From positions 496,001-560,000 of the forward strand of contig NZ_KB235896.1 in the NCBI RefSeq assembly GCF_000332135.1: DNA of 64,000 nt. The letters are read 5' to 3'. A program made the translations under genes and the position numbers. The stretch's first letter is position 1. Every line of letters starts with the position of its first letter. This DNA is from Anabaena sp. PCC 7108 (lineage in GTDB: Bacteria; Cyanobacteriota; Cyanobacteriia; Cyanobacteriales; Nostocaceae). Of this stretch, positions 2,746 to 61,724 are shown in pieces. Under the pieces are notes generated by a model that saw only the letters and a list, made by a program, of their open reading frames with translations, was not told where the DNA came from and made no database searches.

Positions 2746-2850
2746 ATAATAAGTTTAAGGTTTGGTTATGAATCGTTATGTTATGCTATTGCTGTAAATT
2801 CTATTTGGATACCTTAATACCTATTTAAGATTTTCAGGAGACTGTTTCTA

Positions 2851-3504
2851 TTGATTATTCTATGTACTCATAATGACGGTGGTGTAGGCAAAACTACTCT
2901 TGCTGTGCATATTGCTGGTGTTCTTCTTAATAGACAGTATAGTACACTTCTAGTTGATTGTGATGATCAGGCAGATTTTTGGCAGTTTTACATTGATCGC
3001 AATCCAGAAAAATCAAAAGATTGGGAAAAATACGAAAATAGTACAGTAATGTATAATGAAAGGCGTGAAGCAATACCAAAAGAGCTACTAAAAGGTCAAT
3101 ATGATCATATTGTTTTAGATATTAACAGTCCTCTAAAAAATACTGTACAAACAATAGTGGGTAATGACCCGGATTTGATTTTAGTACCAGTTAATAAATC
3201 TCAGAGAATCAAAGCATTGCGTAATCTTCCCAGAACTCTAAAAGTTATTGCTCAATTGGAAACAAAAGCAGGCTATGATCCACAGGTAATTATTGTACCT
3301 TTAGGAATATCACAATCCTCTATATATGAGATCGTTGACAGATTAGAAGATGATTTGAAACCTCAAAGATACAGAGTTGCAGATCAAATGTATGATTGTC
3401 AAGAGGAAATGCAAAATGCTATTTATCAAGATAGAAAATATATTTGGGACTATGAAGGCTTAGAACATTTATACGATTACTTTGTTGATTTATTAGATGG
3501 ATAA
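2851..3504 (+). CDS. ParA/MinD-type P-loop ATPase
   Basis: A 217-residue deviant Walker ATPase of the short ParA type. Walker A is NDGGVGKTT at residues 8-16, an A'-like strand LLVDCDDQAD follows at about 33-42, and Walker B is HIVLDIN at about residue 87. The usual signature lysine of KGGVGKT is an aspartate here, although the P-loop lysine is kept. The start is TTG at 2851 with CAGGAG about 10 bases upstream. It is the first gene of a tight three-gene unit with a tandem RHH-like protein and an Mrr-like nuclease. ParA proteins move DNA or protein cargo by ATP-dependent nucleoid binding; the cargo here is unknown. A chromosomal relic of a plasmid partition system is one alternative. Confidence 0.8.
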   Translation: MIILCTHNDGGVGKTTLAVHIAGVLLNRQYSTLLVDCDDQADFWQFYIDRNPEKSKDWEKYENSTVMYNERREAIPKELLKGQYDHIVLDINSPLKNTVQTIVGNDPDLILVPVNKSQRIKALRNLPRTLKVIAQLETKAGYDPQVIIVPLGISQSSIYEIVDRLEDDLKPQRYRVADQMYDCQEEMQNAIYQDRKYIWDYEGLEHLYDYFVDLLDG

Positions 3505-3520
3505 TCTTGGGAGATTAATT

Positions 3521-4024
3521 ATGTCTAGAGAAGATAAAGTAACTACTCAAAGTAAAGAGTTTTTGGTCGATAATGCCATTCAAAACGGCACAAAAAAAGT
3601 AGAGGAAGAAAAACAAGAAATCCAAAACTTAGATTTAGATATAGAATTAAGATATACTAACTCTGAGTTAGAAAAAATACGGAAACTAACTTCAATCCTA
3701 AGATTGGGAAAAGAACTATTTCTAGAATCAGCAATTAGTTATGTACATTTTCTTTTCTCTGAACATAAAGAAAGTATCCAAAAGATAATTGATGAAGAAT
3801 CAGAAAATTATCAAGCCGAGTTAAAACAAATTAGTCCCATAGAGAATATGTCTAAAAAAGACCGTGATAGATTTTCAGGGAAAATTAGGCTATCGCCTGA
3901 AACATCAAACAAAATAGAACAGTTGGAGATGAAAGATAGAATCAATGAATGTTTGTTTGTTGGTATAAATTTACTTTATAAAAAATTAGTTGGAGAATTT
4001 AAAACAGTTAATCAGGAAAAATAA
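3521..4024 (+). CDS. Hypothetical protein with two ribbon-helix-helix-like segments (ParA partner?)
   Basis: 167 residues, charged and largely helical. Two segments look alike: LDIELRYTNSELEKIRKL near residue 40 and GKIRLSPETSNKIEQL near residue 120. Each is a short beta strand followed by a helix and then a second helix ending in hydrophobic residues, the layout of CopG/ParG-type RHH domains. I infer a DNA-binding partner of the preceding ATPase. The ATG at 3521 has GGGAG eight bases upstream; the earlier ATG at 3497 would overlap the ParA gene and lacks a site. No family name is recognised, and the RHH assignment needs a profile search. Confidence 0.6.
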   Translation: MSREDKVTTQSKEFLVDNAIQNGTKKVEEEKQEIQNLDLDIELRYTNSELEKIRKLTSILRLGKELFLESAISYVHFLFSEHKESIQKIIDEESENYQAELKQISPIENMSKKDRDRFSGKIRLSPETSNKIEQLEMKDRINECLFVGINLLYKKLVGEFKTVNQEK

Positions 4025-4026
4025 AA

Positions 4027-4494
4027 ATGGATTTCTTAGAAATTGATGCCTTAGTGAATGGTATTATTTATTCTACAGAAGCGGCAAAACAAGATTTAGG
4101 AAGACGTTTTGCTGCTTATTTAGGATTAACACCAGGAAAAGTGGGACGTGACGGAGGAATAGATGGTTATGCAAAATTGGATAATGAGATGATTTATTTT
4201 CAATCTAAATTATCCCAGGATATATTGGATGCCTCTTATGCAGCAGAGTTTATTGGGAATATAGTAATTCATGAAGCTAATATCGGCATAATGTTAGCTG
4301 GTTTTGGTTATACAGACGGATTTCGTTCTCGTTTAAATAAAGCTATTCAAAGTAAACATATTAATACACACCTAAAAATTTATTTATTAAGCCTTGAGGA
4401 TGTGTTTGGAGAAACGGAGATATTTATAAAAGCTACTCAAGATTTACCTCCATTGAGGAATTTGAGTAATGGAGAATGGGCTAAATATAAATAG
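4027..4494 (+). CDS. Mrr-like PD-(D/E)XK restriction endonuclease-fold protein
   Basis: 155 residues. GRDGGIDGY (residues 40-48) followed after 10 residues by FQSK (58-61) matches the GGIDG...QxK active site of Mrr-like PD-(D/E)XK nucleases; D46, Q59 and K61 would be the catalytic set. The N-terminal helix (DLGRRFAAYLGL) fits the family. The ATG lies two bases after the stop of the RHH-like gene, so the three genes are almost certainly one transcript. A lone Mrr-type enzyme would cleave modified DNA; linkage to a ParA-type ATPase and a DNA-binding partner suggests a targeted or defensive nuclease. Substrate unknown. Confidence 0.65.
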   Translation: MDFLEIDALVNGIIYSTEAAKQDLGRRFAAYLGLTPGKVGRDGGIDGYAKLDNEMIYFQSKLSQDILDASYAAEFIGNIVIHEANIGIMLAGFGYTDGFRSRLNKAIQSKHINTHLKIYLLSLEDVFGETEIFIKATQDLPPLRNLSNGEWAKYK

Positions 4495-4611
4495 TATAAT
4501 ATCTGACGTTATCTATTATTTATATATTTATTTAAATTAGGTTTAAATGTATATGTGCATCAGCAACACTATCCAAAAATCTCACAATTTATTTGAGGAG
4601 GTGGGAATAAA

Positions 4612-8880: not shown

Positions 8881-9441
8881 ATGAAAATGTATACGCAGAA
8901 ACGCTTCAAGAGCCGATTTTTATTTTTTGACCGTTGGTTAGATCGTCATGCAATCGTTCGCAACATGGAGGCCTTCCAAGACTTAATTGTCATTTTCCTC
9001 TGTTTAGCCTTATTTGCAGTCATGTTAGTACAATTGTGGGGAATATTTATTGCTCTCACTCATTCACTAGACTACAAACAAGTAACAGCTAAAATGTTAT
9101 TTGTATTAATTCTAGTTGAGTTATTTCGACTACTTATGGTTTACTTACAAGAGCATAGTATTGCTGTTGGTGTAGCAGTCGAAGTAGCAATTGTTTCCGT
9201 TTTGAGAGAAGTAGTAGTTCATGGTGCGCTAGATATTTCGGGAATACAAACAGCAGCAATTTGTGGCTTATTACTTATTTTGGGTGGATTATTATTAGTC
9301 TGTGCCAAAACACCTCACATGGATTGTATGAGTGCTAACACAAAATCTTGTCCAATTTTGCATTCAGGAAGGAGAGAAGAGGAAAATGAACTAGAATTTA
9401 GATATTCACGTACCTGTGATGAAAACCAACCTCCTGCATAA
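8881..9441 (+). CDS. PsiE-like phosphate-starvation-inducible membrane protein
   Basis: 186 residues with four hydrophobic segments: DLIVIFLCLALFAVMLVQL near 35, KMLFVLILVELFRLLMV near 75, VAVEVAIVSVLREVV near 100 and an ICGLLLILGGLLLVCA segment near 130. The hydrophobic pattern and the ELFRLL..YL...IAV block match the PsiE family (PF06146-type). These are small inner-membrane proteins, often phosphate-responsive in E. coli; their biochemical function is unknown. The C-terminal about 40 residues are polar. Starts at 8881 or 8887 are both possible. Confidence 0.8.
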   Translation: MKMYTQKRFKSRFLFFDRWLDRHAIVRNMEAFQDLIVIFLCLALFAVMLVQLWGIFIALTHSLDYKQVTAKMLFVLILVELFRLLMVYLQEHSIAVGVAVEVAIVSVLREVVVHGALDISGIQTAAICGLLLILGGLLLVCAKTPHMDCMSANTKSCPILHSGRREEENELEFRYSRTCDENQPPA

Positions 9442-9621
9442 ATAAGCCAAAAGACATCATTCTCTGGCTAGATAAACCAAGCCATAAAAGTAGCAAGTGG
9501 GAATACCAAATACTTGAGGCTGCTAATGCAGCCTTGATACTTTTCCCTCAGCTTTTTGGTAGATGAATGACTCTTTGAGAGTGAGTATAAATTAATTAGA
9601 AACTTTCAAAAGGGTAAATTT

Positions 9622-9861
9622 ATGACTACTGGTAACGGGCAATCGCAACAACCCATTAGTAATTTAGAGTACGACTTCATTACCGTACTGCACAACAAAG
9701 CCGCAGCAGTACAAGCTTACGAACGTTACATTCAAGATGCACAAGAAGTTAATTCTCAGCCTTGTGTAGAATTGTTCCAAAAATTACGTCAATCAGAAAT
9801 TGAAGAAGCACAAGAAATTCGTCATCATCTGCAACAAGTGATGGCACAAGGAAGGATGTAA
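9622..9861 (+). CDS. Conserved small helical protein of unknown function
   Basis: 79 residues, all predicted helical: NLEYDFITVLHNKAAAVQAYERY followed by CVELFQKLRQSEIEEAQEIRHHLQQ. The spacing of helix pairs with E/H residues resembles small ferritin-like or DUF2383-like four-helix proteins, but no metal site is convincing at this length. AAAAGGG precedes the ATG. I regard it as a real cyanobacterial small gene without known role. Confidence 0.65.
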   Translation: MTTGNGQSQQPISNLEYDFITVLHNKAAAVQAYERYIQDAQEVNSQPCVELFQKLRQSEIEEAQEIRHHLQQVMAQGRM

Positions 9862-9876
9862 ACTTTAAATCCGTAG

Positions 9877-9903
9877 GGTGCGTTAGCAACAGCGTAACGC
9901 ACC
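9877..9903. repeat. palindromic GGTGCGTTA...TAACGCACC repeat
   Basis: Inverted repeat with a 9-bp loop just after the small helical gene. The same core recurs near 35811-35836 and is related to the GTAGGGTGCGTCAGA arms of the MITE-like elements. Confidence 0.65.
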
Positions 9904-9932
9904 ATTAGCATTTTTGAATAGGTCTTATAAAT

Positions 9933-10620
9933 TTACAAATCATCGAATTTTTTATTTACTTCCAGAATTTCTAATCCAACGTCAATTCTATTACGACACC
10001 ACATTGCGTTTTCTTTAGACCAGTTTAAATCTTCAACAAGATATTGCTGAATTAATTCAGTATTTATCTTCTTTCTTTTACAAAAACCCGAAGCTGCACA
10101 AATAAATAAATCAAGCCTTTCAATATCATTACGATGATAGCTTTGTGGATGAGAACTCAGGTATCTTTCAAATCGCTCTCTTGTTTTTGGAGATGAAATG
10201 ATTTCATTTAGTCCAATATCTTCTTTTGATATTTCAATAGAAATATTCTGAACACCAGAATTAATAAATTTATTAAAATCTTGATAAAATCGCCTTAGTA
10301 AAGCGTTATATTCTAGCATTGATATATAGCCATGCTGCGAATTAAAAATATTTACTATGGAATAATATAATTGGTCATTTTTTCGAGTTTTTTTAGTCAC
10401 AATATTTCTTTTAGTTATAAGAAATTTTGGTTGGTGGTAGCCATTATCTAAAGATAGAATACAGGAGGGCTTACTCGTTTCTTTTATATGTTCTTCAGAT
10501 TCTTTTTGGAGATAAGTCCAATCCTTAACCTGTTGAGTGAAATCTTTAATAACATTAATTAATAAATTCGGTATCACTCATTTCTTTTGATTTTAAGTTT
10601 AATTCTTGATAAGCATTCAT
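9933..10620 (-). pseudogene. Hypothetical protein, probably frameshifted near the N-terminus
   Basis: The longest open frame (9933-10577, 214 residues) starts at a weak GTG. Upstream, another frame starting with ATG at 10620, with an AGG eight bases before it, encodes MNAYQELNLKSKEMSDTEFIN and then stops. The junction contains TTAATTAA (10555-10562), a tandem TTAA. With a single TTAA the two frames join as ...TEFINVIKDFTQQ..., a natural-looking protein of about 228 residues. So either the gene is disrupted by a 4-bp duplication or it is phase-variable. The product is soluble, lysine-rich, with no recognised domain. An alternative is a functional shorter protein from the GTG. Confidence 0.55.
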
Positions 10621-10794
10621 TTAATTAACCTAAAAATATTTAATTTGCTTGACAAGGATGTAGGAAACCACCTGAATTAAATTCTATGTTGGTCACGAGC
10701 GATAACTAAGCAATATATAGAAATCGTGCCTTTTTCCCCTGCTTCTATCTTTAAAAAGATACACCTCCGACCACCGAAAAAGGTTTAAAATCTC

Positions 10795-11055
10795 TTAGAC
10801 AATTGCCAAATCATAATGCAAAACTAAAATTTCATCTGCTCTTAACGTAGCCATTGCATATTCACACCCTTGAGAGTCAGCAAATTCTACTAAATAATAA
10901 CATTCTTCTCCTTCCTCATAAACTTCTACAATTGTTCCGACTTGCCCATTTGGTAAACTTGAAATAGAAGTATAATCTTCTTCCACCAAGGTTAATCGCT
11001 CAACTGGAATAGGCTTGAGAGTGGCGATAGTATCTAAAAGTTTAAGTTTTTTCAT
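10795..11055 (-). CDS. DUF4926 domain protein (putative antitoxin/immunity partner)
   Basis: 86 residues with the DUF4926 pattern LPNGQVGTIVEVYEEGEECYYLVEFAD...ATLRADEILVL, a small beta-barrel-like fold. It overlaps the upstream DUF6883 gene by 14 bp, so the two are translationally coupled. DUF4926 genes commonly follow DUF6883 genes in cyanobacteria, suggesting a toxin-antitoxin or toxin-immunity pair; this is inferred from gene pairing, not from known activity. Confidence 0.75.
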   Translation of the reverse strand: MKKLKLLDTIATLKPIPVERLTLVEEDYTSISSLPNGQVGTIVEVYEEGEECYYLVEFADSQGCEYAMATLRADEILVLHYDLAIV

Positions 11056-11386
11056 CTAATTTAAGAAACGCAGTAATCAAGCGTGGATTAGGATTTTTAG
11101 CAGTAATTTCCCAGATTGTCCGCAGTCTAATTCCATCTGTATCAGGTACTATCCAATCTACCTTAAACTGTTCACCAAATGGTGTTGTGTTTTGCTGGAC
11201 AACTTCACCTGATATTGCGGCTGTTTGTACAAGTTCACGCAAAATATTAGCATCTTCAACTTTAATTCCTAAAACTGATGCAAAAACCCTAGCTTTATGT
11301 TTTCCACTAGGATGTTCTAGGTTTAGGCAGTAGTCAGTTAGCTTTTCCATAGCTATCTCTGACTTTTCGCCATTGGGTAATTTCAT
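11042..11386 (-). CDS. DUF6883 domain protein (putative toxin)
   Basis: 114 residues. The motif LEHPSGKHKARVFASVLGI near residue 27-45 and the C-terminal block VDWIVPDTDGIRLRTIWEI fit DUF6883, a domain also seen at the C-terminus of polymorphic toxins. As a stand-alone gene coupled to DUF4926 it is a candidate toxin. It is first in the pair; in classical type II modules the antitoxin is usually first, so the order is reversed. Activity is unproven. Confidence 0.7.
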   Translation of the reverse strand: MKLPNGEKSEIAMEKLTDYCLNLEHPSGKHKARVFASVLGIKVEDANILRELVQTAAISGEVVQQNTTPFGEQFKVDWIVPDTDGIRLRTIWEITAKNPNPRLITAFLKLDEKT

Positions 11387-55763: not shown

Positions 55764-55960
55764 TAATTCGTAATTCGTAATTCGTAAACAGGGAACAGGG
55801 AACAGGTGACAGGTGACAGGTAACAGGTGACAGGGAACAGGTGACAGGTGACAGGGAACAGGGAACAGGTGACAGGTGACAGGTAACAGGTGACAGGTAA
55901 CAGGTAATTCTTAATTTCCCCGCGTCTGGAGCGTCTCCCCATCTCCGCGTCCTCCCTCGT
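55764..55960. repeat. three-part tandem repeat cassette A
   Basis: In order: ATTCGTA heptamers (55764-55787), about seventeen ACAGG(G/T)(A/G) heptamers (55788-55905), the linker TAATTCTTAATTTCCCCGCG, then degenerate CGTCTCC(C/G)-type octamers (55919-55960). Cassette B at 61385 has the same modules in the same order with different copy numbers. Confidence 0.8.
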
Positions 55961-61384: not shown

Positions 61385-61724
61385 ATAATTCGTAATTCGT
61401 AATAATGCCTACGGCACGCTACGCGAACGTAATTCGTAAACAGGTTACAGGGAACAGGGAACAGGTTACAGGGAACAGGTTACAGGGAACAGGGAACAGG
61501 GAACAGGGAACAGGGAACAGGGAACAGGGAACAGGGAACAGGGACAGGTAATTCTTAATTTCCCCGCGTCACCGCGTCCCCGTGTCCCCGCGTCACCGCG
61601 TCACCGTGTCCCCGCGTCACCGCGTCACCGTGTCCCCGTGTCTCCGCGTCCCGACTTCCCCGCGTCACCGCGTCTCCGCGTCTCCGCGTCTCCGCGTCCC
61701 GACTTCCCTACCTCCCCACCTCCC
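61385..61724. repeat. three-part tandem repeat cassette B
   Basis: TAATTCG heptamers with a CCTACGGCACGCTACGCGAACG palindromic module (61407-61429), then about fifteen ACAGGGA/ACAGGTT heptamers (61439-61545), the linker AGGTAATTCTTAATTTCCCC and about twenty CCGCGTC(A/C/T) octamers (61562-61705). The order equals cassette A. It separates the VOC gene from convergent thrC; no terminator is seen. Confidence 0.82.

Follow-up and report, generated by a model that had tools for sequence, protein, structure and literature searches.

Why a ParA-superfamily ATPase should share an operon with a tandem ribbon-helix-helix (RHH) protein and a PD-(D/E)XK nuclease is the question raised by a cassette of approximately 1.65 kb in Anabaena sp. 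PCC 7108, which sits in the window analysed here, a stretch of 64,000 nucleotides of a 5.7-Mb contig. The three genes are arranged head to tail on the forward strand, and their open reading frame (ORF) coordinates bear out the tight operon recognised in a first-pass annotation of this DNA, with gaps of 16 bp between the ParA and RHH genes and 2 bp between the RHH and nuclease genes (Table 1). An in-frame ATG at 3497, upstream of the assigned RHH start, is an alternative start that would give an 8 bp overlap with the ParA gene. No integrase, replication gene or methyltransferase belongs to the cassette. We find that the three genes are co-inherited as a unit in which the catalytic motifs are kept. 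No description of a ParA, tandem-RHH and nuclease trio appeared among the papers listed by searches of the open-licence literature, in agreement with the initial remark that its author knew of no described system with this gene set.

The nuclease is present in 21 of 192 genomes of the family, at 24 places with decayed copies included, and the RHH protein in 18 of the 192. In a sample of 386 genomes from the phylum, the nuclease alignment matched 17 genomes, 12 of them strongly, and the RHH alignment matched 14, of which 11 were strong. All 11 genomes with strong RHH matches are among the 12 with strong nuclease matches, and the twelfth (G157) carries a decayed copy. Weak matches were left out of the module count, namely the nuclease matches in 5 of the 17 genomes, of which the two inspected are other Mrr-type proteins, and three RHH matches. 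Outside the family, the RHH and nuclease genes lie side by side in the same order in 12 of 12 strong loci (7 genomes); the ParA gene accompanies them in 11 of these loci and is reduced to a remnant in the twelfth. Comparisons with three relatives gave dN/dS values of 0.11-0.24 for the ParA gene, 0.11-0.30 for the RHH gene and 0.19-0.24 for the nuclease gene. With dN/dS values of 0.11-0.30 and a gene order, ParA-RHH-nuclease, that several families of the order share, the trio is not a chance association. All three proteins are covered over more than 75% of their length in 25 of the 43 loci examined, with correlations of 0.84-0.86 between the distance matrices of the proteins (25 loci), values reached by none of 2000 permutations, although shared descent could suffice to produce it. 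The co-occurrence and constant gene order support the earlier proposal that the three genes form one functional unit. Of the three outcomes that the first-pass annotation named as counting against it, namely homologues that do not co-occur, a middle protein without RHH fold and a third protein without nuclease core, none was observed.

Walker motifs and family profiles place the window ATPase in the ParA superfamily (SIMIBI), as first annotated. It matches Pfam AAA_31 at 1.6e-11 and CbiA at 1.2e-9, and NCBIfam ParA_partition at 1.3e-14, yet with 54 bits where the cut-off is 180, while its PDB profile matches include Soj, McdA (6non, 6noo) and plasmid ParAs. The initial description of a deviant Walker ATPase is only partly correct. 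The Walker A motif of the window protein reads N-D-GGVGKTT, with D in the position of the signature lysine of deviant Walker motifs, and at this position before GG 18 of the 24 readable relatives have D, N or S and the remaining six K. The Walker lysine itself is kept in 24 of 24, and GxGK[TS] in 23, the exception being GVGKI at locus L142. The module ParAs form a separate set, since in a search of the 192 family genomes full-length copies scored between 1e-147 and 5e-24 and other ParAs started only near 1e-7. The carboxysome-positioning protein McdA belongs to the same family and also has no signature lysine; it partners McdB and no nuclease.

Family profile searches gave no convincing match for the middle protein, with RHH_1 matching 2 of 22 members (best 0.25) and the Pfam DndE profile one of 22, at 0.075. 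In the AlphaFold2 model (pLDDT 78.7, pTM 0.67), the two RHH-like segments noticed at first correspond to two predicted strand-helix-helix units in a single chain, the first comprising strand 41-44 and helices 47-60 and 64-81, and the second strand 119-122 and helices 126-135 and 138-165. The nearest PDB chains in structure comparison are a chain of the F-plasmid relaxosome, which we take to be TraY, and DndE. Unlike F-plasmid TraY, to which it is 6% identical, the middle protein has no relaxase or transfer genes nearby, and it shows neither the sequence membership of DndE nor the neighbouring DndD and DndC genes. An orphan intact tandem-RHH gene, with no ParA or nuclease gene, was observed within a kinase/VWA cluster in genome G137 (L110:8175-8588).

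The window nuclease matches Mrr_cat at 0.0046, under the Pfam cut-off, and this profile is matched by 16 of 19 aligned relatives at E values up to 0.1, the best being 6e-6. Its AlphaFold2 model (pLDDT 89.1, pTM 0.84) is a compact PD-(D/E)XK core whose nearest folds are AspBHI and MspJI by structure comparison and EcoT38I by Foldseek, consistent with the Mrr-like assignment made at first from the GGIDG...QSK motif. The D and Q/E-x-K residues of Mrr and type IV cores are present: all 25 nucleases have D46 and 22 have K61, with R in its place at L132, L136 and L142. In the clade formed by these three Q-x-R nucleases two ORFs are intact, so activity may have been altered or lost there while the gene was kept. 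Unlike the modification-dependent restriction enzymes Mrr, MspJI and AspBHI, with which it shares the core and the D..Q-x-K motif, the module nuclease is a catalytic core alone with obligate ParA and tandem-RHH neighbours, and in place of a DNA-recognition domain of its own the model has one catalytic domain and short extra helices. At L095:9079-9534 in genome G018 an intact nuclease gene stands by itself, with neither ParA nor RHH, beside an apparent PIN toxin-antitoxin pair (by reading).

On its 5′ side the module is flanked by an S41 peptidase gene and a divergent SPFH/Band 7 gene, and on its 3′ side by DUF29, an EF-G-like gene (EF-G by reading) and a TPR gene. Module-free alleles exist: at the SPFH-DUF29 junction of genome G126, approximately 160 bp of other sequence occupy the position of the module, and by eye the inserted stretch of the window shows neither a target duplication nor a terminal repeat. 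A transposon was considered and rejected, since the unit lacks a transposase and inspection by eye showed no terminal repeats. In genome G053, the EF-G-like gene beside the module (L086:8885-9440) is a remnant in which residues 1-130 are fused to residues 617-672 of the window protein. Where genome G164 has a decayed module, genome G144 carries, next to DUF29, a gene that reads as HNH-type (L150:3059-3799), and this position is possibly an exchange site for nuclease cassettes. Elsewhere in the window, tandem arrays with 7-bp (AACAGGK) and 24/48-bp units were observed at 55787-55907, 61439-61548 and 61560-61708.

Table 1. Coordinates of the cassette genes and of the inserted stretch, numbered from the first nucleotide of the window.
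Feature	Position	Strand	Remarks
ParA-superfamily P-loop ATPase gene	2851..3504	+	217 aa; starts with TTG; Walker A motif D-GGVGKTT, signature lysine missing
Tandem RHH gene	3521..4024	+	167 aa; TraY/DndE-like arrangement; N-terminal tail of low confidence
PD-(D/E)XK nuclease gene	4027..4494	+	155 aa; confined to an Mrr-like catalytic core; GGID46G, FQ59SK61
Inserted stretch, approximate	2773..4575	.	by comparison with genome G126 (locus L153), whose SPFH-DUF29 junction has no module; ends placed by eye

Occurrence of the module is patchy: two of five genomes of the genus carry it, and one genome (G458) has up to four copies. Its sites differ between genera, lying near aconitase, transhydrogenase, cytochrome oxidase or a kinase/VWA cluster (labels by reading), with alanyl-tRNA synthetase also among the neighbours (Pfam, three neighbours), and the same position can persist within a genus (L092/L093, L105/L109). 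Of 36 nuclease places, 19 are on contigs of 4.7-11.6 Mb and the rest on shorter draft contigs. A single plasmid record out of 72,556, from Synechococcus elongatus, carries the trio, adjoining Abi and restriction genes, with a second ParA gene pair elsewhere on the same plasmid. A scan extended beyond cyanobacteria with the window protein alone, which reaches close relatives only, returned 11 loci, eight of them cyanobacterial; the other three are larger Mrr-type proteins (two from Furfurilactobacillus, one from Bacteroidetes), and neither ParA nor RHH was matched there.

We tentatively read the trio, with somewhat less than an even chance, as a self-contained DNA-targeting conflict module, most likely directed against incoming DNA. 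In such a module the tandem RHH protein would fold back on itself as DndE and TraY do, forming a single two-stranded ribbon for reading DNA, and would give the complex its DNA specificity; the nuclease, having no recognition domain, would depend on it for targeting. The ParA-like ATPase would bind DNA in its ATP state and could act as a scanner, assembler or licensing switch, a role that would parallel how DndD is thought to work with DndE. The ParA/RHH pair would locate target DNA for the nuclease, as had been suggested at the outset, and cleavage would occur once the complex has engaged DNA that is foreign or replicating. Repression of the operon and restraint of the nuclease may be further roles of the RHH protein. 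The nearest described logic is that of DndD-DndE in the Dnd phosphorothioate systems, an ATPase and DndE with effectors, although DndD is an ABC-type ATPase whereas that of the module is ParA-type, with no DndB or DndC beside it. A more specific version, in which a new DNA immune system employs a ParA-family ATPase (mostly without the signature lysine) that, together with a tandem-RHH adaptor, scans DNA or polymerises on it and brings in a restriction nuclease with no recognition domain, is possible but in our view doubtful, and it is with equal reserve that such a system may be regarded as partition machinery turned weapon, parallel to DndD-DndE on an unrelated ATPase.

Several results weigh against a conflict module. 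The structural matches of the RHH protein are of middling Z and its model is mainly helical, and Foldseek alone returned no significant match for it (best E 0.74). Three of the 25 nucleases carry Q-x-R and not Q-x-K. The ATPase is not always kept, because the nuclease is intact but ParA is lost, broken or absent in six loci (L050, L087, L095, L099, L134 and L140). Searches of 50,697 phage records and of viral contigs returned no module, and PADLOC-DB 2.0.0 gave no strong match, the best being mad8 at 0.0087 for ParA and mREase_IV at 0.03 for the nuclease. A defence-island setting does not hold in general: in a scan of 95 neighbours at 26 loci (out of 153 candidates at 27 loci), which had no random-region control, several neighbours are housekeeping genes. 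PADLOC matched 129 models to these neighbours at 1e-5, and among the 25 listed was a DndD/PbeC-like gene at the chromosomal locus L135, one of the 26 loci, where the rest of a dnd cluster was not seen; a DpdF match at L131, also among the matches listed, falls on a protein reading as a topoisomerase. A link between the module and phosphorothioation through co-occurrence with DndC was also considered and set aside, as DndC is found in 187 of the 192 family genomes regardless of module presence and does not discriminate; DNA phosphorothioation may be a host trait shared by the family.

The main rival to a conflict module, which we regard as serious even if rather unlikely, is addiction of the toxin-antitoxin kind, in which the nuclease would be a DNA-cleaving toxin, the RHH protein its antitoxin and operon repressor, and ParA would control activity or distribution. 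The layout is that of a type II toxin-antitoxin system, with an RHH gene in one operon with a toxin candidate, directly upstream of it and often separated by a few bases or overlapping. The decay of the module is in keeping with this: 21 of 42 loci have three intact genes by the script threshold (23 with two divergent RHH proteins included), and lesions confined to one gene affect ParA four times, the nuclease three times and the RHH gene never, a bias that given gene length has a P of 0.05 with L087 taken as a ParA lesion and 0.07 without it. Of 13 loci with a broken or missing nuclease, 8 retain an intact RHH gene, and this gene is kept in 28 of 29 loci whose nuclease is intact, counting the divergent full-length proteins of L135 and L142 and the frameshifted one of L087 (26 of 29 by the script threshold), which hints that losing the RHH protein while the nuclease works is costly. 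Moreover, the genome that carries the sole nuclease without an adjoining RHH gene (L095) also has a complete module, 94% identical to it over 511 bp. However, the statistics are weak, the Fisher test giving 0.007 on the generous count and 0.083 on the script count, and L087 runs counter to such a cost, its nuclease being intact despite an RHH gene frameshifted at the C-terminus and no ParA. A classical type II system needs no ParA partner and, to our knowledge, a restriction-like fold is not typical of type II toxins. As a separate observation, ParA at L099 (genome G175) is split by a serine-recombinase and TnpB-like pair (by reading; approximately 9197-11173), with the RHH and nuclease genes still open.

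A partition or positioning system of ParA and RHH that has acquired a nuclease and maintains an integrated element or chromosome region is improbable. RHH-type partition loci such as ParF-ParG and delta-omega are known to have ParA beside an RHH gene; there, as in the module, a small RHH protein whose N-terminal tail is flexible comes after a ParA-type ATPase. A ParA-RHH neighbourhood is tabulated in PMC2701414, and one module copy is on a plasmid. Unlike ParF-ParG and delta-omega, the module has two RHH units per chain, a nuclease gene that always comes next in intact loci, a mainly chromosomal location and an ATPase mostly missing the signature lysine, and the low-copy plasmid carriage and centromere repeats of type II (RHH) partition are not what is found. 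By eye, no centromere- or operator-like upstream repeats are shared by 21 loci, and the upstream region of the window has only two-copy, chance-like repeats. The partition reading is disfavoured because of this absence of repeats, the missing lysine and the location, with more than half of the nuclease places on contigs of at least 4.7 Mb; the unit also has no integrase or replication gene. The initial suggestion of a partition-restriction hybrid left by a plasmid fares badly on the same evidence, given a single plasmid record that itself bears another ParA pair. Least probable, we consider, is a selfish homing-type cassette, whose nuclease would cut module-free sites into which the module is then copied. 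A patchy, mobile unit that has a lone nuclease and no transposase would suit homing, as would the existence of module-free alleles, but the settings differ between genera and are not alleles of one site, the G126 junction has other sequence in place of the module and is no clean empty site, and ParA is left unexplained.

ParA ATPases are otherwise known for moving plasmids, chromosomes and carboxysomes. If the conflict-module reading, which we tentatively prefer, is true, the ParA family would extend to nucleic-acid defence or addiction, coupled to a DNA-cutting enzyme via a tandem-RHH adaptor, and a second core of an ATPase and a tandem-RHH protein would stand beside DndD-DndE. The module would be a natural test of ParA function without the signature lysine and, being small, self-contained and present in tractable cyanobacteria, including on a plasmid of Synechococcus elongatus, it is directly testable.
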